Shown one piece after another: positions 3 through 33,263 of a DNA stretch of 64,000 nucleotides (its first letter is position 1; every line of letters begins with the position of its first letter). Location: positions 186,001-250,000 of the forward strand of contig JAUZOO010000006.1 in the NCBI GenBank assembly GCA_030706405.1, read 5' to 3'. Both the position numbers and the translations under genes were made by a program. This DNA is from Bacteroidota bacterium (GTDB lineage Bacteria; Bacteroidota; Bacteroidia; Bacteroidales; JAAUTT01). The notes beneath the pieces were generated by a model. It saw nothing but the letters and a program-made list of their open reading frames with translations, made no database searches and was not told the DNA's origin.

Positions 3-2666
3 ACGCCTAATATTTCGAATACGCTTATTGGCCGTTTAGCCGGATTGACGGTAACCCAGGGGTCGGGCGAGCCCGGTAACGATAATGCCAGATGGCTAAT
101 CCGTGGAGTAGGCAGTTACGGCTATGGCGGGTACAATGTCTGCAAACTTTTTGTTGATGGATTTGAAGTTAATGCAAATTACTTCACCAATCTTTCGGCT
201 TCGGAAATCGAAAGCATATCGGTACTCAAAGATGCCGCATCGCTCGCTACCTTTGGGATGAGAGGCTCCAATGGTGTGATTTGGGTTGAAACCAAACGCG
301 GAAAAGTTGGTAAATCAACCGTTCAGGTACAGCTCCGCTCGGGAATGCAGAGCGCTACCAAAATTAATAAACCGTTGGGCTCTTACGATTTTGCCAACCT
401 TTACAATCAGGCCATAAGCAACGATAACGGCATGACTTGGACCCCTAAATATTCGACAACTGATCTGACTGCCTACAAAAACGGCACCGGGGTTAATGTT
501 GACTGGTATGACAAGGCTATGAAAAACTATGGCGCTTATAACGACGCCGATGTGATTTTTAACGGAGGTAATTCGTCGGCACGCTATAACGTAGTGCTAG
601 ACTATGCCAACCAACAAGGACTTTATAATGTTTCCAATACCGATCAGACGTCGAACATTAACCTGGCAAGGTACAACCTCAGGGCTAATCTCGATTTTAC
701 CATGTTTGGCATCTTTGAAGCTAAAGTTGACCTTGGCGGAAGATTGGAAGATCGTAAACGACCGAATTACTCCACCTCGGGTCTTATGGACGACCTTTCG
801 CGCTATCCTTCCAACATTTATAATGTATATGACGGTGATACAACTCTGTTCTCCGGTACGTCAGTTTATCCGAACAACCCTGTTGGATCTGTCAAAGGGT
901 TAGGCTGGTATTCTACACATACCCGTATTTTACAAGGTAATTTTGGTCTTAAAGAAAAGCTTGATTTTATCACGAAAGGATTATATGTAAACGAGGCTGT
1001 TTCGTTTAATGCTTACGCATTAAGTACTTATAGTAAAACAAAAAACTATGCACGGTATTATAACGGAGCAACTACCACTACCGATCAGACCACAACAATT
1101 GTAGCCAGCGGTTATGGCTCGGGCGGACAGGAAATGTGGACGCAGGGCATTGTAACGTTGGGTTACGATGGTAAGTTCGGAGCTCATTCCATTGCTTCTG
1201 CTTTAAATTTTCATGAGTCCGATTATCGTGGTGACGGTTTCTTTGGTGATAAATATCATTATCAGAACATTAGTGGTCGTTTTAACTATAACTACGATAG
1301 TCGGTATGTGGCTGAATTTGGATTTTCGTACTTCGGTAACGACGCCTATGCCCCCGGAAACCAATGGGGATTTTATCCTACAGTATCCGGCGCATGGATT
1401 GCTTCAAACGAGTCATTTCTTAAATCGAGCAATGTTGTCAACTATTTAAAAGTTAGAGCTTCCGTTGGAACAACAGGAGGTTCGGATGCCGGAGCAACCG
1501 GAAATTTGTCGTCGTTTTCTTCAAACGGACGTTTTCTCTATCAGCAATATTATAGCTCAAGTCCGGTAGGCTCAACCTATTTCGGTAATGGTACCCCGTC
1601 GGGTCAGGGAACGCTCGCTCCGTTGTTTGTGGCTAACAAAAATGTATTTGCCGAAAAAAGCCTGAAATACAACCTTGGCGCCGAGGTTACCTTGTTTAAA
1701 AAGCTTGATGCCAGCGTAGATGTTTTTATGGACAAACGCAGCAATATCCTTACCCTTGATAACTCGCTCATGGGATACTATGGATATAACTATGCCTTCA
1801 ATAATATTGGTAAAATGACCAATAAAGGCATTGAAGTAACTGCGTCTTATACCGACAAGGTTGGTGAGGTTGGATATACCATTCACGGTATGGCTTCGTA
1901 CAACAAAAACAAGATCGATTACATGGCTGAAGTAACTCCTGCCAATGCATTCAATGCACAAACCGGCCGTGCTTTTGGTACGCCGATAGGTTTGGAATGT
2001 GACGGTTTCTTTCAGTTGAGCGATTTCAATGCCGATGGTTCATTAAAAAGCGGAATTGCAGTACCTGCCTTTGGCGCTGTTCAACCCGGCGATTTAAAGT
2101 ATAAGGATCTGGACAAAAATGGGGTAGTGGACCAGAACGACGTAACCTCTATTGGAAAAACGCCATATCCGGAACTCACTTACGCTTTTGGCGGAACCGT
2201 AAATTATAAAGGATTTGACCTTACTGTATTTTTGCAAGGCACCTATGGCTCGTCGGTAAATCTTCTTGGATCGGCTTATAACCAAACGGTAGCTTTTGTG
2301 AACAATGGCAACGCATACGAAATTGCTAAGGATGCCTGGGCATATTATCCAAATCAGGGTATCGATACCCGTGCAACTGCCAAATATCCACGCTTAACAA
2401 CCTTAGGAAATACCAACAACTACCGTAGCAGTAATTTCTGGATGAAAAGCGGCGATTTCCTTCGCGTTCGTAATGTTGAACTGGGTTACAACTTTACCCC
2501 TCAGTTGCTTGGTAAGATTGGCCTTTCGAAACTAAGACTTTATGTAAATGCCATAAATCCGATTACCTGGAGCAGCCTGCTGAAGGATTATCACATCGAT
2601 CCCGAAATTCAGAGCGGCTATCCTGCCCTTAAATCGGTGAACGTTGGTATTACCGCTACTTTCTAA
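3..2666 (+). CDS. SusC-family TonB-dependent outer-membrane transporter (5' end outside window)
   Basis: The reading frame is open from the first bases of the window, so the gene begins upstream; 887 residues are visible of a family that is usually about 1000. The first visible residues (TPNISNTLIGRLAGLTV, then SGEPG and an IRG motif) are the SusC plug-domain signature. The rest is rich in aromatic and Asn/Gly beta-strand segments and ends in the aromatic terminus FTATF expected of an outer-membrane barrel. SusC proteins import oligosaccharides across the outer membrane using TonB energy, with SusD as lid. The signal peptide and carboxypeptidase-like N-terminal domain must lie off the window. 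SusD follows 18 bases downstream, so the pair is almost certainly cotranscribed. Confidence 0.95.
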   Translation, partial: TPNISNTLIGRLAGLTVTQGSGEPGNDNARWLIRGVGSYGYGGYNVCKLFVDGFEVNANYFTNLSASEIESISVLKDAASLATFGMRGSNGVIWVETKRGKVGKSTVQVQLRSGMQSATKINKPLGSYDFANLYNQAISNDNGMTWTPKYSTTDLTAYKNGTGVNVDWYDKAMKNYGAYNDADVIFNGGNSSARYNVVLDYANQQGLYNVSNTDQTSNINLARYNLRANLDFTMFGIFEAKVDLGGRLEDRKRPNYSTSGLMDDLSRYPSNIYNVYDGDTTLFSGTSVYPNNPVGSVKGLGWYSTHTRILQGNFGLKEKLDFITKGLYVNEAVSFNAYALSTYSKTKNYARYYNGATTTTDQTTTIVASGYGSGGQEMWTQGIVTLGYDGKFGAHSIASALNFHESDYRGDGFFGDKYHYQNISGRFNYNYDSRYVAEFGFSYFGNDAYAPGNQWGFYPTVSGAWIASNESFLKSSNVVNYLKVRASVGTTGGSDAGATGNLSSFSSNGRFLYQQYYSSSPVGSTYFGNGTPSGQGTLAPLFVANKNVFAEKSLKYNLGAEVTLFKKLDASVDVFMDKRSNILTLDNSLMGYYGYNYAFNNIGKMTNKGIEVTASYTDKVGEVGYTIHGMASYNKNKIDYMAEVTPANAFNAQTGRAFGTPIGLECDGFFQLSDFNADGSLKSGIAVPAFGAVQPGDLKYKDLDKNGVVDQNDVTSIGKTPYPELTYAFGGTVNYKGFDLTVFLQGTYGSSVNLLGSAYNQTVAFVNNGNAYEIAKDAWAYYPNQGIDTRATAKYPRLTTLGNTNNYRSSNFWMKSGDFLRVRNVELGYNFTPQLLGKIGLSKLRLYVNAINPITWSSLLKDYHIDPEIQSGYPALKSVNVGITATF

Positions 2667-2684
2667 TCTTTAAAATGTAATGTT

Positions 2685-4376
2685 ATGAATTCGAAATATA
2701 AATTCAGATTTGTTCTTGTAGCCGCAGCAATCCTGGCTACAGTCGGGTGTACCGAGGATTTCCTGGATACAAAAATGGACACGCAAAAGACTCCCGAGCA
2801 GATAGCTACCGACCGTGCTTCGCTGTGGTATTACGCGAATGCGTTTTATTCCCCCATGACCTATGGCTTTTCCGTACTCGACGGTAATTTATTTGCAGCA
2901 GCTTCAGACGAAGCCCAGCAAACTGCCGCATCGTCCAATGCCAATTATTTTAATCAGGGCATGATAAACGCCAGCGTTAACCCGTTGAGCGGTTTATACA
3001 AAAATTATTACGAAGGTATCCGCGCTGCCAACTTTTTTCTGGATTATTCTAAAAATGGTAAGCAGATGATTGCTATGAACCGTGATACGGTTAAAGAAAC
3101 CACCTCGTACCATGACGATCTCAACTTCCTGAAGTGGTACCGTGCCGAAGCACATGTTGCCCGGGCTTATTATTATGCCGAGCTGATAAAAATGTACGGA
3201 GGTGTTCCTATTGTAGAGAAGACGCTCGATCAGTCCGCCGGAACGTATATTGCCCGTTCTTCTTATGATGATGTGGTTGCCTACATTGTAAAAGAGATCG
3301 ATACTTATAAAGATTCATTACAGGTAAACTGGCTAACTACGTCGTCGTACATCTCGCAGGATGGGCGCTTTACATTGGGCGCTGCTCTGGCAATCAAGGC
3401 CCGCGTTTTATTATACGCTGCAAGCCCGCTGCATAATTCGACCAACGATGTTGAAAAATGGAAGAAGGCTGCCATCGCGGCCAGCGCCGTAATGACAACC
3501 GCAGGACTAAACTATGACCTGGATGCCACCAACGGTTATCGGAACTACTTCTTAGGGGCTACGCCGCTTGGAAATAAAGAAACCGTTTTGGCTGTTCGCA
3601 GAGGAGCTAACAATACCATGGAAAGCTTAAATTACCCCATTGGTACCTCCGGCGGAAATAGTGGGGTTTGTCCTTCGCACAATCTTGTGGCCGACTATGA
3701 ATATATAGGAACGCCCGATGCTATTGACATCTATAAAAACCGCGATCCGCGTCTGGCCGCAACTGTTGTACTCAACGGAAGTACCTGGACAAGCCGTACA
3801 ATCGACGAATCGGCCGGTGGAACAGACGATATGGCCAAAGCCAATACCAGCAAAACAGGGTATTATCTTAAAAAATTTCTGACAGATGCTCTTAACCTTA
3901 CTCAGGGGGCAACAGCTCAACATCAATGGGTGGCATACCGCTATGCCGAAGTGCTGCTCAATTATGCCGAAGCCGTAAACGAAGGCTATGGTGGCCCCGA
4001 TCAGGCTGTTCCCGGAAATACCATGACCGCACGGCAAGCGCTTAAAAAAGTACGCGACAGGGCAAGTACATTGTTGCCATTGGTAACTACTACCGATCAG
4101 GCAACATTTAGAGCCGCCCTAAAACATGAACGAAGGATTGAGCTGGCATTTGAAGATCACCGCTATTGGGACCTCCTGCGCTGGAAGGATGCTAAGGTTG
4201 TTCTTAATCAACCTCTTCAGGGCGTAAAAATTGCCAAAGATGCAAGTGGTAAATTCAGCTATCAGGTTGTGAATATTGCAAGCCGGGTATTCAATGACCG
4301 TAATTACTACATGCCTTTCTCCCGTTCGGAGGTTGCGAATTCCAATGGAACCCTCGTCCAAAATGATGGTTATTGA
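2685..4376 (+). CDS. SusD/RagB-family surface lipoprotein
   Basis: The 563-residue protein starts with a basic, hydrophobic signal peptide ending in a lipobox (ATVGC, Cys22), then TEDFLDTK, a common SusD N-terminus. Mid-protein segments rich in Ala and Tyr (AEAHVARAYYYAELIKMYGGVP) match the TPR-like helices of SusD. The C-terminal third contains the family motifs YRYAEVLLNYAEAVNE and HERRIELAFEDHRYWDLLRW. SusD forms the lid of the SusC transporter and binds glycan at the cell surface. It lies 18 bases after susC and its stop is 26 bases before the next start, which fits a single operon. The glycan cannot be predicted from the sequence. Confidence 0.96.
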   Translation: MNSKYKFRFVLVAAAILATVGCTEDFLDTKMDTQKTPEQIATDRASLWYYANAFYSPMTYGFSVLDGNLFAAASDEAQQTAASSNANYFNQGMINASVNPLSGLYKNYYEGIRAANFFLDYSKNGKQMIAMNRDTVKETTSYHDDLNFLKWYRAEAHVARAYYYAELIKMYGGVPIVEKTLDQSAGTYIARSSYDDVVAYIVKEIDTYKDSLQVNWLTTSSYISQDGRFTLGAALAIKARVLLYAASPLHNSTNDVEKWKKAAIAASAVMTTAGLNYDLDATNGYRNYFLGATPLGNKETVLAVRRGANNTMESLNYPIGTSGGNSGVCPSHNLVADYEYIGTPDAIDIYKNRDPRLAATVVLNGSTWTSRTIDESAGGTDDMAKANTSKTGYYLKKFLTDALNLTQGATAQHQWVAYRYAEVLLNYAEAVNEGYGGPDQAVPGNTMTARQALKKVRDRASTLLPLVTTTDQATFRAALKHERRIELAFEDHRYWDLLRWKDAKVVLNQPLQGVKIAKDASGKFSYQVVNIASRVFNDRNYYMPFSRSEVANSNGTLVQNDGY

Positions 4377-6369: not shown

Positions 6370-8046
6370 ATGAAAACCAATCGTCGGGATTTTTTACAAA
6401 GAGCTGGTTTGCTTGCAACTGCAACCGGGCTAGGGAGTGTTATCCCTGGTAAGACCTTTGCCGCAACAACTCCTGAAAAATCGGAAAATATAATTTTGGC
6501 TTCGGCTAACAGTGCTGTTGCCGATACCGTTGCTGGAAAAGTACGGGGATACATTCGCAATACAGTTTTTACGTTTAAAGGTATTCCGTACGGAGCCTCA
6601 ACCGGTGGCGAAAACAGGTTTATGCCATCGCTGAAACCGGCTTCGTGGAATGGCGTTCGCGATTGTTTGGTGTACGGGCCTATCTGTCCGCAGAAAGCAA
6701 ACAGCGGATGGTCGCAACAAGAATACGGGTTTCTATACCAATGGATCGATGGTTATCAGGAAGAAGATTGCCTTCGGTTGAATGTTTGGACTCCGGCGAT
6801 TAACGATGGAAAAAAACGACCGGTGTTGTTTTGGATACACGGCGGTGGCTTTTTTTCGGGATCCAGCCAGGAGCATCCTTCGTACGATGGCGAAAATTTA
6901 AGTAAACTCGGTGATGTGGTGGTGGTCTCCATCAATCATCGTCTTAATATATTTGGCTTTCTCGATTTGTCGGACTATGGAAATCGTTACGCATCGTCGG
7001 CTAACGTCGGGATGCTGGATATTGTGACTGCCCTCGAATGGGTTCGCGATAATATTGGTCGTTTTGGAGGAGATAAGGACAATGTAACCATTTTCGGACA
7101 GTCGGGCGGCGGAACAAAAGTAACAACGTTGATGGCGATGCCGTCGGCAAAGGGATTGTTCCATAAAGCAATATCGCAGAGTAATTCTATAGTTCAGGTT
7201 GCCACGCACGAATATGCCACGCAAATTACGGGTTATGTTTTGGGCGATTTGGGAATTACCCGCGACTCGATTGCTGAATTACATAAAATAAAACCGTCGC
7301 GGTTGCTCGAAGCGCTTTCCGTTGCCGAGCAGAAGATGGGTTCAAAAGTGCCGGCTAATGTTGGGCGGTCTGGTCTTCAACCCGTGGTGGACGGCAATAT
7401 ATTGCCCTCGCATCCTTTTGACCCGGAGGCTCCGGCTATATCTGGCAATGTGCCTTTTATGGTTGGGTCAACCCGTAACGAAGCTTCTGCCAGCATCAAT
7501 AATGCTATCGTGGAAAACCTTGATGAAGAAGGACTGAAAAAAAGGCTAAACGACCGTTTCGGATTAAAAGGAAGCCAGGTTTATCAAGTGTTGCGTAAAG
7601 TTCATCCGAATGTAAAACCTGTTGAGATTTTATCGTTTATCAGCGCACAAAATCCGATGGCTTATTTGATGGCCTCGCGGAAGTCGGCACAACTCGTCGC
7701 TCCGGTATATCTTTACATGTTTGCCTGGCACACGCCGGTGCTCGATGGTCGCCCACGGTCGTTTCATTGCAGCGAAATTCCTTTTGCCTTTGCCAATACC
7801 GACCGTTGCGAGCATTATACCGGTGCAAGTGGTGAGGCTCGTATTTTGGCCGACAAGGTGTCCGGCGCCTGGCTTAACTTTGCCCGTCACGGAAATCCTA
7901 ATCATAAAAAATTACCCGAGTGGCCTGCATTTAATGAGAAGAATGGAGCTACAATGGTGTTTAATACTCGTTGCGAAGTTCGTAACGACCCCGATAACGA
8001 AGCCCGGGAATTGCTTCAACGTATTTTTTATAATAAAGAGGTCTAA
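6370..8046 (+). CDS. Type B carboxylesterase with Tat-like signal
   Basis: The 558-residue alpha/beta hydrolase starts MKTNRRDFLQRAGLLATA, a twin-arginine signal, so it is probably exported folded to the periplasm. Type B esterase marks are EDCLRLNVWTP, the oxyanion-hole HGGGF, the nucleophile elbow FGQSGGG (Ser245), the acid region GSTRNEAS and the His region FHCSEIPFAF. The triad therefore looks complete. Within a PUL it most likely removes an ester substituent from the glycan or its oligosaccharides; which one is unknown. A second, only distantly similar esterase lies about 1.6 kb downstream. The Tat route differs from the ordinary secretion signals of the neighbouring enzymes. Confidence 0.88.
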   Translation: MKTNRRDFLQRAGLLATATGLGSVIPGKTFAATTPEKSENIILASANSAVADTVAGKVRGYIRNTVFTFKGIPYGASTGGENRFMPSLKPASWNGVRDCLVYGPICPQKANSGWSQQEYGFLYQWIDGYQEEDCLRLNVWTPAINDGKKRPVLFWIHGGGFFSGSSQEHPSYDGENLSKLGDVVVVSINHRLNIFGFLDLSDYGNRYASSANVGMLDIVTALEWVRDNIGRFGGDKDNVTIFGQSGGGTKVTTLMAMPSAKGLFHKAISQSNSIVQVATHEYATQITGYVLGDLGITRDSIAELHKIKPSRLLEALSVAEQKMGSKVPANVGRSGLQPVVDGNILPSHPFDPEAPAISGNVPFMVGSTRNEASASINNAIVENLDEEGLKKRLNDRFGLKGSQVYQVLRKVHPNVKPVEILSFISAQNPMAYLMASRKSAQLVAPVYLYMFAWHTPVLDGRPRSFHCSEIPFAFANTDRCEHYTGASGEARILADKVSGAWLNFARHGNPNHKKLPEWPAFNEKNGATMVFNTRCEVRNDPDNEARELLQRIFYNKEV

Positions 8047-8123
8047 TTTATTGACAACTAATTCTTAGTTCTTGACTCTTAGTTCTGTATTTTACAATCT
8101 AACTTCTTGATAAACCTTAATTT

Positions 8124-9512
8124 ATGAGATTATTAAAAGCTTTTTTGATGCTGGCCTGTATGTTGCCGGGTTATAGCATCTTTTCGCAAACATCCGTAAA
8201 CTGGTGGCTTACATCTGCCGACAAATCGGCTTTGCTGACTAAACAAGTGCCGTTAACGTTAGGTGAAACCGCTAATAACGGAACTCCGAACATTATCGTT
8301 ACCTCCGATCATAAATATCAGTCGGTCGATGGTTTTGGCTTTGCCCTTACCGGAGGAAGCGCCCAGCACATGATTCGCATGTCGGCGGACGAGCGTAAAA
8401 AATTGATTCAGGAATTGTTCGGGAAAGGTATCAATGATATTGGAATCAGCTATCTGCGTGTAACTATCGGGGCTTCGGATTTGAATGATCACGTATTTTC
8501 GTATGACGATGTTCCTGCCGGTCAAACCGATGTCAACCTCGAACATTTTACACTTAAAGAAGATGAAAAAGACGTGATTCCGGTGTTGAAGGAAATACTG
8601 GCCGTGAACCCGGATATTAAGATTTTGGGATCTCCTTGGTCGGGACCTGTTTGGATGAAATCGAACAATAACATACAGGGAGGCAGGCTTAAAGATGAAT
8701 ACTATCCTGTATATGCCAAGTATTTTGTTAAATATATCAAGGCAATGCAGCAACAAGGAATTGCAATTGATGCCATCACCGTTCAAAACGAACCTTTTAA
8801 CGATGGAAATACGCCGAGTATGCAGTTTTTAGCCAAAGAGGAAGCTAATTTCATTAAAAAGCATCTCGGACCAGCATTTAAAGCGGCAGGAATTAAAACC
8901 AAGATTATTTTGTACGATCATAATTGCGATGCCCCGGAATACCCTATCTCCATTTTAACGGACCCCGAAGCTCGTCAATATATCGACGGTTCAGGGTTTC
9001 ATCTTTATGCAGGTCCAATCACTGCATTATCCAAAGTACACGATGCTTTTCCGGATAAGAACCTGTATTTTACCGAAATGATGGCCGTAAGCCGTAATGA
9101 TTTTAATGTGGCCAATCCTGTAAATCGAATCCTAATTGGAGCAATGCGCAATTGGAGCCGTAACGTGATTTTATGGAACCTGGCCGCCGACCCTAACAAC
9201 GATCCCCATACCGATAATGGTGGATGTACCATGTGTCAGGGTGCTATAACTATTGATGGCGATAAGGTTAGCCGCAACCTGGCGTATTATACTATTGCTC
9301 ATGCAACGGCGTTCGTCCCTTCAGGTTCTGTACGTGTCGAAAGTTCTATTTTTGAAGATCTTACCGATGTCGCTTTTGAAACACCTGAAGGAAAAACAGT
9401 TTTAATTGTGGCAAACAGAACTGGGGATGAAAAACAGTTTACGGTAAGTTGTAAGGGTAAGTCGTTTGCGGCCTCTTTAAAACAAGGTTCGGTTGCTACT
9501 TATGTCTGGTAA
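8124..9512 (+). CDS. GH30-family glycoside hydrolase
   Basis: This 462-residue protein has a signal peptide ending near IFSQ. The N-terminal YQSVDGFGFALTGGSAQ stretch is the usual opening of the GH30 (beta/alpha)8 barrel. The acid/base is Glu223 in TVQNEPF and the nucleophile is Glu318 in YFTEMM. LGSPWSGPVWMKSN and NLAADPNNDPHTDNGGC are further GH30 hallmarks, and the end forms the small beta domain of the family. GH30 enzymes cleave beta-linked glucosyl or xylosyl chains, including beta-1,6-glucan. The similarity is strongest to the glucosylceramidase/beta-1,6-glucanase branch as far as can be judged by eye, so a beta-glucan-like substrate is inferred, not shown. Confidence 0.88.
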   Translation: MRLLKAFLMLACMLPGYSIFSQTSVNWWLTSADKSALLTKQVPLTLGETANNGTPNIIVTSDHKYQSVDGFGFALTGGSAQHMIRMSADERKKLIQELFGKGINDIGISYLRVTIGASDLNDHVFSYDDVPAGQTDVNLEHFTLKEDEKDVIPVLKEILAVNPDIKILGSPWSGPVWMKSNNNIQGGRLKDEYYPVYAKYFVKYIKAMQQQGIAIDAITVQNEPFNDGNTPSMQFLAKEEANFIKKHLGPAFKAAGIKTKIILYDHNCDAPEYPISILTDPEARQYIDGSGFHLYAGPITALSKVHDAFPDKNLYFTEMMAVSRNDFNVANPVNRILIGAMRNWSRNVILWNLAADPNNDPHTDNGGCTMCQGAITIDGDKVSRNLAYYTIAHATAFVPSGSVRVESSIFEDLTDVAFETPEGKTVLIVANRTGDEKQFTVSCKGKSFAASLKQGSVATYVW

Positions 9513-17384: not shown

Positions 17385-19682
17385 ATGAAAAAAATCTGTT
17401 TATTAACGATTTGTTTAGTCGCAACATTTCAGTTGTTTGCACAAAAAGTGCCTCAGTTGGGAAAGGACAAAATTGAAGATGTTGTTGCTGCAATGACTCC
17501 TGAAGAAAAGGTTTATCTCGTTGTCGGACTTGGTGATGCTATTTGGCGAAATCCTCCTACCGGCGAAAAAACCGTAATTGTTGCCGGTGCTGCCGGACGT
17601 ACCTGGGGAATTCCGCGCTTGGGCATTACGCCTTCCGTTTTGGCCGATGGCCCTGCCGGATTGCGGATAAATGCTAAACGTCCCGATGTTTCGCAAACTT
17701 TTTACTGCACCGCTTTTCCAACAGCTACCGCCCTGGCTTCTTCATGGAATACGCAACTGGTCGAAAACGTTGGTAAAGCCATGGGTAATGAAGTGCTCGA
17801 ATATGGTTGTGATGTGCTGTTGTCCCCCGCTATCAATATTCATCGTAATCCTCTTTGCGGCCGCAACTTCGAATATTACTCGGAAGACCCGCTGATTGCC
17901 GGAAAGATGGGAGCTGCCATGATTCGTGGTATTCAGTCGAACGGCGTTGGAACCTCGTTAAAACACTTTGTGGCCAACAATATCGAAACCAACCGTATGA
18001 AGATCAATGCTGTAATTAGTCAGCGTACATTGCGCGAAATTTACCTGCGCGGGTTCGAAATAGCTGTAAAAGAGGCTCAGCCGTGGACCGTAATGTCGTC
18101 GTATAACCGGTTAAACGGATTTTATACTTCGGAAAATGCCGATTTGCTTACAACTATTCTTCGTAACGAGTGGGGATTTCAGGGCATGGTAATGTCTGAC
18201 TGGGGCGGAGGAGCCGATGCTGTTGCCCAGATGAATGCTGGAAATGACATGATAATGCCCGGAAGCCATCAGCGTGCCGAGCTTTTAAATGCCTTGAAAA
18301 ATAAGACTCTTCACGAAAAGATCCTTGATCGTAATATTATCCGTATCCTTTCTTTTATCTTGAAAAATCCACGGTTTAAAGGCTATGCTTTTTCGAATCA
18401 GCCAGATCTGAAGGCTCACGCCGAAGCATCACGAGCTGCTGCAACTGAAGGCATGGTGCTGCTCAAGAACGATAAAAACGTGCTTCCCTTTAAGAAAGTA
18501 AAAACAGTAGCTCTTTTTGGGAAAACATCATATCGCTTCATTGCTGGCGGAACAGGTAGTGGCGAGGTTAACTACGAACATGCAATATCTATTAAAGAAG
18601 GTTTTGTTAATGGTGGTTTTACTGTTGTGAAACCCTTGGAGGATGTTTATACGCAGTTTGTTGATACGGTTATGGCAAACTCGAAGGCGAAAAATAAAAA
18701 GAGTGCTGTCGATTTTCATGCCGAAATGCCACTATCTCAGCAGCAAATTGACGACCAGGTTAAGAATTCGGACATTGCCATTATAACTATTGGACGCAAC
18801 GCCGGCGAAGGTTGGGACCGCAAGGAAGCGGATTATTTCGTACTCTCGGATATTGAAAAAAACATGATTAAAGGAGTTTGCGGTGCATTCCATGCCGCCG
18901 GAAAGAAGGCTGTTGTGGTGCTCAACGTTGGTGGGGTAATGGCAACAACCGATTGGCGCGACCTTCCGGATGCTATTGTATTGGCTTGGCAAACCGGGCA
19001 AGAAGGGGCTAATGCACTGGTCGATATTCTGAAAGGTAAAGTTAACCCATCCGGGAAACTGCCCATGAGCTTCCCGGTGGCTTACCAGGATGTGCCATCT
19101 TCCAAAACGTTTCCCGGTGAGCCTAAGGACAATCCTGTAAATGCGTTTTACGACGAAGGTGTTTATGTTGGCTATCGTTACTACAACACGTTTAAAGTGC
19201 CTACAGCCTACGAGTTTGGCTATGGTCTTTCTTATACACAGTTTCAATATTCGGACATATCGCTCAGTAACAATGTGTTCTCCGATTCGATTACGGTTAA
19301 AGTCAATTTAAAGAATACCGGGAAAGCGGAAGGGAAAGAAGTGGTTGAGCTGTATTTAAGTACTCCTAAAACAGAACTTGAAAAACCAGAAGAAGAACTG
19401 AAGGCTTTTGCCAAGACTAAATTGTTGAAACCGGGCGAAAGTCAAGAGCTTAGCCTTACAATTAATGCCCGTGCTTTGGCTTCGTTCTGGAGCGGGTTAA
19501 GCGCTTGGGTTGCCGATAAAGGCGAGTATGAAGTAAGGGTTGGGGCTTCGTCGAAAGACATCCGGTTAAAGGCTTCATTTACGCTTCCCAATACCGTAAT
19601 TGTCGAAAAAGTTCATAATGTTCTGTATCCCAATTTTCCTGTAAAGGATCTTAGTATTGTTAAAAGTGAAAGTGCTAAATAA
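17385..19682 (+). CDS. GH3-family beta-glucosidase-like enzyme (PUL copy)
   Basis: The protein has 765 residues with a signal peptide (ending LFAQ). It shows the GH3 order: an N-terminal barrel with GRNFEYYSEDPLIAGKMGAA, SLKHFVANNIETNR and nucleophile Asp272 in VMSDWGGGAD; the alpha/beta sandwich from about 350 with MVLLKNDKNVLPF; then a C-terminal fibronectin III-like domain (about 650-745, ending in the EVRVGASSKDI motif). Most such enzymes release terminal beta-glucose or beta-xylose from oligosaccharides in the periplasm. It is the last gene of the locus and is followed by a strong terminator. GRTWGIPRLGITPSVLADGPAGLRI fits the beta-glucosidase branch. Confidence 0.92.
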   Translation: MKKICLLTICLVATFQLFAQKVPQLGKDKIEDVVAAMTPEEKVYLVVGLGDAIWRNPPTGEKTVIVAGAAGRTWGIPRLGITPSVLADGPAGLRINAKRPDVSQTFYCTAFPTATALASSWNTQLVENVGKAMGNEVLEYGCDVLLSPAINIHRNPLCGRNFEYYSEDPLIAGKMGAAMIRGIQSNGVGTSLKHFVANNIETNRMKINAVISQRTLREIYLRGFEIAVKEAQPWTVMSSYNRLNGFYTSENADLLTTILRNEWGFQGMVMSDWGGGADAVAQMNAGNDMIMPGSHQRAELLNALKNKTLHEKILDRNIIRILSFILKNPRFKGYAFSNQPDLKAHAEASRAAATEGMVLLKNDKNVLPFKKVKTVALFGKTSYRFIAGGTGSGEVNYEHAISIKEGFVNGGFTVVKPLEDVYTQFVDTVMANSKAKNKKSAVDFHAEMPLSQQQIDDQVKNSDIAIITIGRNAGEGWDRKEADYFVLSDIEKNMIKGVCGAFHAAGKKAVVVLNVGGVMATTDWRDLPDAIVLAWQTGQEGANALVDILKGKVNPSGKLPMSFPVAYQDVPSSKTFPGEPKDNPVNAFYDEGVYVGYRYYNTFKVPTAYEFGYGLSYTQFQYSDISLSNNVFSDSITVKVNLKNTGKAEGKEVVELYLSTPKTELEKPEEELKAFAKTKLLKPGESQELSLTINARALASFWSGLSAWVADKGEYEVRVGASSKDIRLKASFTLPNTVIVEKVHNVLYPNFPVKDLSIVKSESAK

Positions 19683-21264: not shown

Positions 21265-21311
21265 AAACACAAAAGAGGCGCAAAGTTTGGTTTTGCGCCT
21301 CTTTTGTGTTT
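21265..21311. terminator. Bidirectional terminator between convergent genes
   Basis: A perfect 20-bp stem (21265-21284 with 21292-21311) has a 7-base loop. A/T runs at the stem base give a T tract in either direction. It separates the + strand exporter pair from the - strand sugar transferase. Confidence 0.95.
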
Positions 21312-21329: not shown

Positions 21330-22478
21330 TTAAGCACTTCTTATTTTATTGGTTAGTATGTTATATACAGCCATAAAGAAATACTTCGTATTGGTAATCG
21401 TTGGGTTCTTTTTTAGTTCGTTAAGGTAAATACGTTCTGCTTCGATATTTCCAAGGGCATCAGGCATGTTTAGGGCCACATAAGGTGGAATACATCCGGG
21501 TTTATGTTTAATCCGTTCTTCCTTTAAATCTTCCGGAAATTGACTAAACCGGAACTGGCTCAAAGGTCTGACTCCAACAATACCCAGTTCTCCGCGAAAA
21601 ACATTGATAAACTGAGGAATCTCATCGAGCCAAAGTTTACGGAAAAATTTACCCCAACCGGTCAGCCGGAAATCGTTGGCAGGCTTGCCCTCGTGGTTGT
21701 AGCCATTAAGCCGCACCACAAAATCCTGAAGAAACTCGGAATAAGGATGCATGGTTCTTAGCTTGTAAACCTTTATCAGCTTGCCGTTTCGGCCAACACG
21801 TCGCATGGGGAAGAACGGGCCATTGGAGATATTGACTACTGATTTGGGTTCACTGGTTTTCATCACAACAAAATACATGAGATTGTTGATTTGTTTGAAT
21901 TCAATAATATCGAAACCACAATAAACCAGTCTTCCAAGAGTTTCGGCCAAAGAAATGACACGGTATTTGTTCTTGGTTAACCAAATATACAGTTTTTGAG
22001 TAAATTTAACCCGAGGCATTACCCGGTTAAAGATAAAATCAAAAACCCATAATAATTTGGTCAGGGTCTGCCCAAAACGTTTGGTCATTTTTTGCCACCG
22101 GATGTCGTAGGTTTCAACACACCCAATGTAAATTCCGGCATCGGGCAACAGGGTGTTAATGGAGCGTAATAAAGAATTAATTCTCTGGTGTTTGTTGGCT
22201 TGCTCCAAGTTTATGATTACACGAATGTTGTCGAAGTTGACATTGTCGTATAACCGTTTCTGTTTGGTCGAAAACAGAATCGTCTCCTGATGTTCAAGGG
22301 GAAAGTGCTCGGAAATATAACTCAAAACCTCCTCTCCGGCTTCCTCCCTTAAAGCATTGATTAAATCGTTATTGGTGGTAATAGGTTGGGAAATAACTTC
22401 TTCTTGAGTTGCAGCAGCGCGTACTTTGGTGAGTTTTTCGGAAGCAACTTTGCTGCCTAAATTTAGAAATATGTTCAT
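21330..22478 (-). CDS. Sugar-phosphate transferase fused to an unusual N-terminal domain
   Basis: In this 382-residue protein, residues about 218-382 match the bacterial sugar transferase domain: GPFFPMRRVGRNGK, VYKLRTM, the catalytic Asp-Glu in LDEIPQF (285-286) and VGVRP. Such enzymes place a sugar-1-phosphate on a lipid carrier to start polysaccharide synthesis. Normally a membrane-embedded helix lies just before the GPxFF motif. Here that position holds YCGFDIIEFKQINNLMYFVVMK instead. Residues about 65-210 look like a Rossmann fold (IRVIINLEQANKHQRINSLL, DAGIYIGCVETY), perhaps a degenerate methyltransferase. It is transcribed alone, and the carrier and sugar are unknown. Confidence 0.78.
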   Translation of the reverse strand: MNIFLNLGSKVASEKLTKVRAAATQEEVISQPITTNNDLINALREEAGEEVLSYISEHFPLEHQETILFSTKQKRLYDNVNFDNIRVIINLEQANKHQRINSLLRSINTLLPDAGIYIGCVETYDIRWQKMTKRFGQTLTKLLWVFDFIFNRVMPRVKFTQKLYIWLTKNKYRVISLAETLGRLVYCGFDIIEFKQINNLMYFVVMKTSEPKSVVNISNGPFFPMRRVGRNGKLIKVYKLRTMHPYSEFLQDFVVRLNGYNHEGKPANDFRLTGWGKFFRKLWLDEIPQFINVFRGELGIVGVRPLSQFRFSQFPEDLKEERIKHKPGCIPPYVALNMPDALGNIEAERIYLNELKKNPTITNTKYFFMAVYNILTNKIRSA

Positions 22479-30848: not shown

Positions 30849-31055
30849 CAGTGTTTGTTGACTTTTCGTAATTTCAAGATGTTATTACTGATTATAATTT
30901 GTAAACTTGCATCAGCAAATTAAAACAAACAGCTGACTTATCTGCTGATAATTGTTTGATATCATTAACTACAGTATTGTTTAAAATATCATTTTTGTAT
31001 TTAATCAATGAATACAAAGGACAACCTATATTTAATAACTAAACAACCTGTATTA

Positions 31056-33263
31056 ATGAACAAATTGAAACTGCTTACACTATCCTGCCTGATGGCGACC
31101 TCGCTGGTTACGGGTTACTCCCAAGGTATTCCCGTGTATCTTGACGAGACTAAATCTATTGAACAACGTGTTGACGATGCCTTGTCGAGAATGACAATGG
31201 AAGAAAAGGTGGCGATGTGCCATGCACAATCTAAGTTTAGTAGTAAAGGTGTTCCTCGTTTAGGTATTCCCGAAGTTTGGATGAGTGATGGCCCGCACGG
31301 GGTTCGTGAAGAAATTTTGTGGGACAGCTGGGGCGAAGCCAAATGGACTAACGATTCCTGCACTGCTTTCCCGGCGCTTACCTGTCTGGCTGCTACGTTT
31401 AATCCTCAAATGTCGTTGATTTATGGTAAAGCCATTGGCGAGGAAGCTTGTTATCGTAAAAAAGAAGTTCTGTTGGGACCTGGCGTGAACATCTATCGTA
31501 CGCCTATGAATGGTCGTAACTTCGAATACATGGGCGAAGATCCGTTTCTTGCTTCAAAAATGGTAGTTCCTTACATTCAAGGTGTTCAGCAGAATGGCGT
31601 GGCGGCTTGCGTTAAACATTATGCTCTCAATAATCAGGAAAAATGGCGTAATCATATCGACGTTCAATTGAGCGACAGGGCTTTGCATGAGATTTATCTG
31701 CCTGCTTTTAAAGCTGCCATTACCGAGGGAAAGGCTTGGTCTATCATGGGATCGTACAATAAACTTCGCGGTCAGCATTGTTGCCATAATGAATTGCTGC
31801 TTAATAAAATATTGAAAGGTGACTGGGGGTTCGACGGCGTTGTAATTACCGACTGGGGTGGAGCTCACAATACCATGGAAGCTATCAATAACGGGCTGGA
31901 CATTGAAATGGGCTCATGGACCAACGGGTTGACTTCGGGCCTGACCAATGCCTATGACAATTACTATCTGGCAATGCCTTTCCTCAATGCTTTACGGGCC
32001 GGACAGGTTTCTCCTTCGGTACTCGACGATAAAGCCCGCCGTATACTTCGTCTGATTTTCCGTACGTCGATGAATTCCAAACGGCCTTACGGAAGTTTTG
32101 GTTCGCCCGAACATGCCGCAGTGGCACGTCAGATTGCCGAAGAAGGTATTGTTTTATTAAAGAACAGTAATAATATTCTTCCGTTAGACCTGAAAAAGGT
32201 CAAGAATATCGCTGTTATTGGCGATAATGCTACGCGCCGGATGACTCAGGGAGGAGGTAGCTCGGTGTTGAAAGCAAAATACGAAATCTCGCCGCTGAAA
32301 GGTTTGCAAGCGCGTTGCGGTAGCGATGTAAAAGTATCGTATGCCAAAGGTTATTCCGCTGGCCCTCCGGTTTATGGCCGCGAAATTCCTTCGAAGGAGG
32401 ATGCAGCGCAGCTTCGCCAGGCAGCCGTTAAATTGGCTCAAAATTCCGATGTGGTGCTCTATTTTGGAGGTTTGAACAAAAATTATTTACAGGATTGTGA
32501 AGATGGTGATCGTCAGCAATATAATTTACCTTTTGGACAGGATCAGTTACTCGAAGAAATTCTTAAAGTAAATAAAAATGTAGTGGTTGTGCTTATTAGC
32601 GGCAATGCCGTTGCTATGCCGTGGGTTGATAAAGTACCAGCCATTTTGCAGGGTTGGTATCTGGGCACCGAAGGTGGCAATGCCTTGGCAGCTGTGCTAA
32701 CTGGCGATGTAAATCCTTCGGGTAAATTGCCGTTTTCTTTTCCGGTGAAATTAACTGACAACGGAGCTCATTCGTTCGATAAGGTTTGTTTCCCCGGCGA
32801 TAGTATTCAGGAAGTTTATAAAGAAGACATTCTGGTGGGTTACCGTTGGCTCGATACCAAAAATATAGCGCCTTTGTTTGCTTTTGGTCACGGACTTTCC
32901 TATACCTCGTTTCAGTATGGTAAGATTCAGTCAGATAAAGCAAAAGTGCATAACGATGATGTTGTTAAATTAACGTTTAACCTCACCAATACCGGAAAAG
33001 TTGCCGGAGCCGAAGCCGTTCAGGTTTATGTTACTCAGAAAAAAGCCTCGGTGATGCGTCCGGTCAAGGAACTTAAAGGTTTTGATAAAGTGAAACTTCA
33101 GGCTGGAGAGAGCAAACAGGTGCAGATTAATCTTCCCGTGAAAGATTGGGCTTTTTACGACGAAAAATCTCAGCAATGGAAAGTTGAGCCCGGACAGTTT
33201 TTGATTCAGGTTGGAGCGTCTTCGCGCGATATCAAGCAGAAAATTGAAGTGGCGGTAGAATAA
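31056..33263 (+). CDS. GH3-family beta-glucosidase-like enzyme (isolated copy)
   Basis: The ATG at 31056 is chosen because it begins a clear signal peptide (MNKLKLLTLSCLMATSLVTG); an in-frame ATG at 31008 would add 16 polar residues ahead of it. GH3 marks are MSDGPHGVREE, GRNFEYMGEDPFLASKM, VKHYALNNQE, nucleophile Asp266 in VVITDWGGAHN, then VLLKNSNNILPLD and a C-terminal fibronectin III-like domain. It resembles the PUL copy in order but differs widely in sequence (GPGVNIYRTPMNGR). It stands alone between the SNF2 and clpB genes with its own terminator. It probably cleaves beta-glucosides or xylosides in the periplasm. Confidence 0.92.
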   Translation: MNKLKLLTLSCLMATSLVTGYSQGIPVYLDETKSIEQRVDDALSRMTMEEKVAMCHAQSKFSSKGVPRLGIPEVWMSDGPHGVREEILWDSWGEAKWTNDSCTAFPALTCLAATFNPQMSLIYGKAIGEEACYRKKEVLLGPGVNIYRTPMNGRNFEYMGEDPFLASKMVVPYIQGVQQNGVAACVKHYALNNQEKWRNHIDVQLSDRALHEIYLPAFKAAITEGKAWSIMGSYNKLRGQHCCHNELLLNKILKGDWGFDGVVITDWGGAHNTMEAINNGLDIEMGSWTNGLTSGLTNAYDNYYLAMPFLNALRAGQVSPSVLDDKARRILRLIFRTSMNSKRPYGSFGSPEHAAVARQIAEEGIVLLKNSNNILPLDLKKVKNIAVIGDNATRRMTQGGGSSVLKAKYEISPLKGLQARCGSDVKVSYAKGYSAGPPVYGREIPSKEDAAQLRQAAVKLAQNSDVVLYFGGLNKNYLQDCEDGDRQQYNLPFGQDQLLEEILKVNKNVVVVLISGNAVAMPWVDKVPAILQGWYLGTEGGNALAAVLTGDVNPSGKLPFSFPVKLTDNGAHSFDKVCFPGDSIQEVYKEDILVGYRWLDTKNIAPLFAFGHGLSYTSFQYGKIQSDKAKVHNDDVVKLTFNLTNTGKVAGAEAVQVYVTQKKASVMRPVKELKGFDKVKLQAGESKQVQINLPVKDWAFYDEKSQQWKVEPGQFLIQVGASSRDIKQKIEVAVE

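Follow-up and report, generated by a model that had tools for sequence, protein, structure and literature searches.

A phosphoglycosyl transferase family lacking the re-entrant membrane helix and fused to a degenerate methyltransferase-like domain in Bacteroidota and other bacteria

The window, i.e. the whole stretch of 64,000 nucleotides analysed from a Bacteroidota genome, encodes on its minus strand (21330..22478) a protein of 382 residues, in which the catalytic domain of a phosphoglycosyl transferase (PGT) is joined to a methyltransferase-like domain and the re-entrant membrane helix (RMH) is missing; its homologues, at most 53 percent identical, align over nearly the full length. The open reading frame and the motifs pointed out in the original prediction were borne out at this locus, with the precision that the gene lies on the minus strand, the plus strand showing stops throughout the interval. 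Upstream, the frame could be extended by only 4 further codons (386-codon frame), and a hidden membrane domain was looked for, without success, in all frames of the 597 bp preceding the start, which rules out a transmembrane (TM) domain carried in another frame. A strong inverted repeat with a 20-pair stem (21265..21311), likely a two-way terminator, lies between the gene and a convergent ThrE-like gene. The gene is an orphan, flanked by those for the ThrE-like exporter and for a PHP protein and having a long AT-rich upstream region, and no Rfam or tRNA features were found around it. Elsewhere in the window, a SusC/SusD-like pair and two GH3-type glycosidases were recognised by eye (45-4376, 17385-19682 and 31008-33263); the remainder has the appearance of carbohydrate-uptake and housekeeping genes, a polysaccharide synthesis cluster being absent.

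The PGT catalytic domain covers residues 216-377 (21348..21833, minus strand as for all features of the gene given below) and matches Pfam Bac_transf (5.5e-23). The AF2 model of the protein, built with 82 sequences (pLDDT 88.6, pTM 0.83), comprises two domains, the second of which (residues 216-377) superimposes on the large monotopic PGT (monoPGT) WbaP (PDB 8t53; Z 14.7, 2.9 Å over 122) as well as on PglC of Campylobacter (PDB 8e37/8g1n; PF02397; Z 12.7, 29 percent identity), with which it shares the catalytic fold and the Lys, Arg, Asp-Glu and Arg-Pro residues. Along the sequence are found GPFF (220-223), KLRTM (239-243; 21750..21764), LDEIPQ (284-289), which includes the Asp285-Glu286 catalytic dyad (21621..21626), and VGVRP (301-305), which includes Arg304-Pro305 (21564..21569). 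K239, R241, T242, M243, R280, D285, E286, P288, N292, G302, R304 and P305 are invariant in 82/82 relatives, the dyad being invariant in canonical PGTs as well, and the key catalytic columns of the family line up with those of canonical PGTs. The Asp-Glu dyad and the supporting Lys and Arg residues that characterise PF02397 are thus present, and the claim that every catalytic mark (KLRTM, LDEIPQ, VGVRP) had been kept holds. Judging by alignment position, R280 and R304 would be the equivalents of PglC Arg88 and Arg112. Binding of UndP was reported for PglC Arg88 and Arg145 (PMC10519829) and, by count along the alignment, the latter would fall in the QVNGR motif. In the family, this Gly-Arg motif of canonical PGTs is replaced by IPPYVAL or IPPFYAD, the loop KPGITGxAQVNGR of PglC reading KPGCIPPYVAL in the window protein, and the arginine in question is missing from some canonical PGTs too. 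Since this acceptor motif is replaced, acceptor handling may have been remodelled in the RMH-less family.

Regarding the RMH, it has been described as common to all members of the superfamily and as playing an important part in the binding of polyprenol phosphate (PMC10519829, PMC6133551). In the window protein, the Bac_transf match spans residues 219-330 and begins only at position 31 of the 179 positions of the profile, which means that the RMH part (1-30) is missing. The highest 19-residue Kyte-Doolittle mean (KD19) of the whole protein is 1.33, to be compared with 2.4-3.1 in the RMH of canonical PGTs from the same and related genomes (n=11). Among the 82 relatives, the median maximum KD19 from the N-terminus to GPxFF is 1.13 and 7/82 reach 1.6 or more, while the 45 residues immediately before GPxFF remain at or below 1.25 throughout. 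The hydrophobic re-entrant helix reported as absent in the original prediction is thus indeed lacking, and lacking from the whole family, in departure from the RMH placed directly before the catalytic domain by which the PF02397 superfamily is defined. This pattern being held by 82 aligned relatives, chance or a sequencing artefact is excluded. The TM-anchored members of the family are likewise devoid of an RMH. With the RMH lost, the enzyme must get to its lipid partner by another route; besides, given the part ascribed to this helix in binding polyprenol phosphate, the acceptor could be a different one, and a different substrate handling can reasonably be supposed from the sequence. As for membrane anchoring, which, or else substrate handling, had been claimed to differ from known PGTs, its absence holds for TM-less members such as the window protein but not for the relatives bearing a bundle of 4 or 8 TM helices on the same core.

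The N-terminal half matches no Pfam family; DUF7225, DUF2827 and other weak Pfam matches were discarded as sub-threshold and not common to the relatives. A diverged PF13727 domain was also considered and rejected, as profile similarity (hhalign 0.2 percent) and a Pfam match were both missing. In the AF2 model, residues 44-209 (21852..22349) adopt a degenerate class I methyltransferase fold: the 50 VIA-align matches listed consist of 47 methyltransferase-fold proteins and 3 PGTs, with a Z of 10.3 for the top methyltransferase, and Foldseek agrees. The claim of a degenerate Rossmann or methyltransferase fold is therefore well in line with the model (Z ~10 against class I methyltransferases). With hhalign, the domain profile matched genuine Methyltransf_23 proteins of related genomes at an E-value of 7.7e-4, against 0.21 for a shuffled-column control, this weak match covering β4-αD-β5. 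By comparison with class I SAM-dependent methyltransferases, such as CmoM or Methyltransf_23 proteins, the Rossmann-like fold is present in the predicted model, whereas motif I and the complete 7-stranded SAM-binding half are not: this half is reduced to 5 strands, with 28 residues from the first strand to the end of β4, and DxGxG is absent, a motif-like string occurring in 2/82 relatives and off the first strand. Because the SAM-binding half is reduced and motif I absent, the domain is read as a dead methyltransferase fold, and conventional SAM binding by residues 44-209 would not be expected from the model.

Within this domain, between β5 and the helix SLAETLGRLVYCGF, a basic and aromatic insert (residues 122-174; 21957..22115) forms a helix-Pro-helix (137-156/158-168) in the AF2 model, and constitutes a putative interfacial membrane element. 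Its median net charge in the family is +9 over residues 122-174, aromatic residues amount to 28 percent of 137-168 against 10 percent of the remaining domain, and F148, R152, P155, Y164 and T168 are 91-98 percent conserved. In the window protein, the helix pair is weakly hydrophobic (KD19 0.83, muH 0.32). An amphipathic or re-entrant helix upstream of residue 218 had been named as what would speak against the loss of the RMH, and the moderately hydrophobic helix-Pro-helix with its basic flanks goes half way in this direction, but its KD19 is too low for an ordinary RMH and it sits inside the methyltransferase-like domain. The insert thus seems too polar for a normal RMH and would suit an interfacial element. 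Membrane docking would probably proceed through residues 137-168; alternatively, the helix pair might pack within the protein. By analogy, UbiG/Coq3 shows that a methyltransferase fold can bind membranes by means of an insertion, since UbiG, which acts on a polyprenyl substrate, contacts the membrane via a helical insertion (PMC4796655); UbiG is however an active methyltransferase without PGT domain, with homology to the window protein going no further than the fold.

The fusion of the two domains was confirmed, yet it does not represent an isolated case and belongs to a large family. Of 60 relatives sampled within the genus and the order, about 19 encode near-full-core homologues, with identities of 36-53 percent. 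While a single-protein query of genome contigs returned nothing, the seeds lying probably in variable parts, an alignment-based scan with one genome per species found at least 583 loci encoding relatives, the best 80 of which were studied; they belong to several classes of Bacteroidota, Ignavibacteria, Calditrichota and Cloacimonadota. In a phylum-wide sample, at least 26 of 395 genomes matched the core profile strongly, a lower bound as at most five candidates were scored per genome, and in a sample of the order a query with the stand-alone domain matched in 58/198 genomes, nearly always fused forms. In the tree of the catalytic domain, one branch separates the 82 family members from 19 canonical PGTs (SH-aLRT 100). 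Tandem copies of the family were observed within two loci (L058:5536-6750 and 7001-8161; L069:40-1410 and 1551-3110). The WbaP of Porphyromonas gingivalis (PGN_1896) was considered as a genetically studied member and rejected: in the P. gingivalis genome (G397), identified via a 100 percent identical DPP11 fragment, the family profile matches just the catalytic part of two PGTs, both canonical, and full-length orthology with WbaP/WbaQ was not found. No description of a methyltransferase-PGT fusion or of an RMH-less PGT was found in the literature searched, an earlier mention in the PNAS 2021 PGT network analysis or in the 2019 RMH study being possible.

Ahead of this common core, the N-terminus is variable. 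In 52/82 members, fewer than 60 residues precede the core, and most members studied have no TM segment; the other types comprise 4 TM helices, about 8 TM helices, a receiver domain or HTH-like repeats, with at least 12 changes of type on the tree, the topology of which is weakly resolved. The large monoPGTs WbaP, WcaJ and EpsZ (TIGR03025) have a similar catalytic domain, and many relatives share their 4-TM bundle (hhalign 85 percent, E 6e-6, against the canonical bundle; pLDDT 75.8 for the predicted model of a 4-TM homologue). In contrast to these enzymes, PF13727 (CoA_binding_3) and the RMH are swapped for the methyltransferase-like domain, and the window protein has no TM bundle. In four loci (L085, L088, L089, L134), family ORFs of 644-674 aa show 7-8 TM-like segments, the bundle being seemingly duplicated. 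One or two HTH-like repeats precede the core in mostly flavobacterial members (L076, L084, L086, L091, L092, L093, L095, L104, L111), L076 giving a weak match to the transposase family HTH_Tnp_1. A receiver domain (Pfam Response_reg, 8.8e-21) is fused to the core in one member (L037:8514-9953, minus strand, the same as L077:6632-8071), with Gfo/Idh and acetyltransferase genes downstream, joined in L037 by DegT. By analogy, this member would be the covalent counterpart of EpsW-EpsZ in Myxococcus xanthus, where a response regulator controls a priming PGT, although EpsW is not fused to its PGT and EpsZ is of the canonical large type (PMC12802240). Besides, in three genomes a stand-alone methyltransferase-like gene immediately precedes a canonical, RMH-bearing PGT gene (L052:7837-8499, plus strand; L051:4971-5660, minus strand; L053:8960-9691, plus strand), with gaps of -55 to +55 bp. 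E179, G182 and R183, invariant in the fused form, are missing from these three stand-alone domains. As the stand-alone domain adjoins a canonical PGT in three genomes, it probably has a PGT-related role besides RMH replacement.

In relatives, the genes are frequently accompanied by those encoding Wza, Wzc, GFO_IDH_MocA oxidoreductases, hexapeptide acyltransferases and DUF354 proteins; among 98 same-strand neighbours, DUF354 was counted 11 times, Poly_export 10, GFO_IDH_MocA 9 and Wzc-type proteins 4. A search of the flanks of 80 family loci, up to 7 kb on each side, revealed no further PGT-like ORF, and several TM-less members represent the sole PGT detected within an exopolysaccharide operon. 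In one locus (L107), a TM-less member of 344 aa belongs to a run of overlapping genes encoding asparagine-synthase-like, GT4-like, FemAB-like, DUF354 and deacetylase-like proteins followed by the PGT, then by Wza and Wzc. On a Spirosoma plasmid (NZ_CP089540), a polysaccharide cluster contains a member as the only annotated PGT of the 30 kb. Another recurrent neighbour, of about 530-605 aa, bears a signal peptide and the pattern HISxxxIYDFLDELA...INS..KPYSR, and was recognised by eye as a Wzi-like outer-membrane protein (L036, L039, L040, L041, L042, L043, L044, L048, L049). Regarding the genome of the window itself, it has just two other PF02397 genes, both canonical, one of which adjoins the wza/wzc genes of contig C19. 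This genome has no DUF354 gene, although such genes are often found next to the family gene in relatives. Two flippase-like and Wza/Wzz clusters of this genome (L199, G000:C15:256000-275900; L200, G000:C1:496000-515500) have no PF02397 gene, and it is possible that the orphan PGT of the window primes the C15 or C1 cluster, PF02397 being the sole type of priming enzyme searched there.

Since the catalytic hallmarks are kept and the RMH is not, the family is classed as a monotopic PGT variant that breaks the defining feature of the group. In the reading we favour, with a probability of about 0.6, the window protein would be an active initiating PGT of the PF02397 superfamily, whose reaction passes sugar-1-phosphate from a UDP-sugar to polyprenol phosphate, working without RMH for a polysaccharide made in its organism; the catalytically dead methyltransferase-fold domain would substitute for both the RMH and the PF13727 cytosolic domain of large PGTs, the basic aromatic helix-Pro-helix (~122-174) would rest on the membrane surface and bring the active site to the lipid, and the exchangeable N-terminal modules (4 or 8 TM helices, receiver, HTH-like repeats or none) would serve anchoring or regulation. 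The PGT could also be active with the dead domain acting mainly in dimerisation or regulation, as proposed for PF13727 of WbaP, and with membrane access provided by amphipathic helices of the catalytic domain and partner proteins rather than by residues 122-174. The three stand-alone domains upstream of RMH-bearing PGTs, from which it follows that the domain can partner a PGT despite an RMH, are in keeping with this, as are the fused receiver and the Myxococcus response regulator, which activates its PGT, through the dimer according to modelling (PMC12802240). A purely regulatory domain would however leave the loss of the RMH in 82/82 fused members unexplained, and the invariance of E179, G182 and R183 in the fused form only argues for a tight role with the catalytic domain, which makes this alternative rather unlikely.

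It is more doubtful still that the enzyme is a soluble phosphosugar transferase, applying the same Asp-based chemistry to another acceptor, be it a protein, a soluble metabolite or another lipid. The RMH and the Gly-Arg acceptor motif are both lost in the same family and most relatives studied are without TM segment, but members take the position of the priming PGT in operons with Wza/Wzc, the same core is tethered to the membrane where 4 or 8 TM helices precede it, and R280, by position the equivalent of the UndP-binding Arg88 of PglC, never varies. That the protein would be a catalytically dead regulator or decoy of other PGTs or of a nucleotide sugar is highly improbable: the orphan position of the window copy beside two canonical PGTs would fit, but none of the catalytic residues varies over several phyla and in many operons the family member is the sole PGT found nearby.

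Extending the favoured reading to the whole family leads to a more tentative proposal, held at somewhat under even odds, of a monophyletic PGT branch in which the dead methyltransferase domain docks on the membrane and presents the polyprenol phosphate, and whose TM-less, receiver-fused and HTH-fused members would be reversibly membrane-bound, switchable primers. As the RMH is described as defining monotopic PGTs and placing their active site at the membrane, a natural RMH-less family with intact catalytic residues would provide a test case for the function of this helix; if the proposal is true, the RMH would fall outside the minimal catalytic PGT. TM-less members may be easier to purify than known PGTs. 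Besides, the variable N-terminal modules, including the fused receiver, point to a direct regulation of polysaccharide synthesis at its first committed step.
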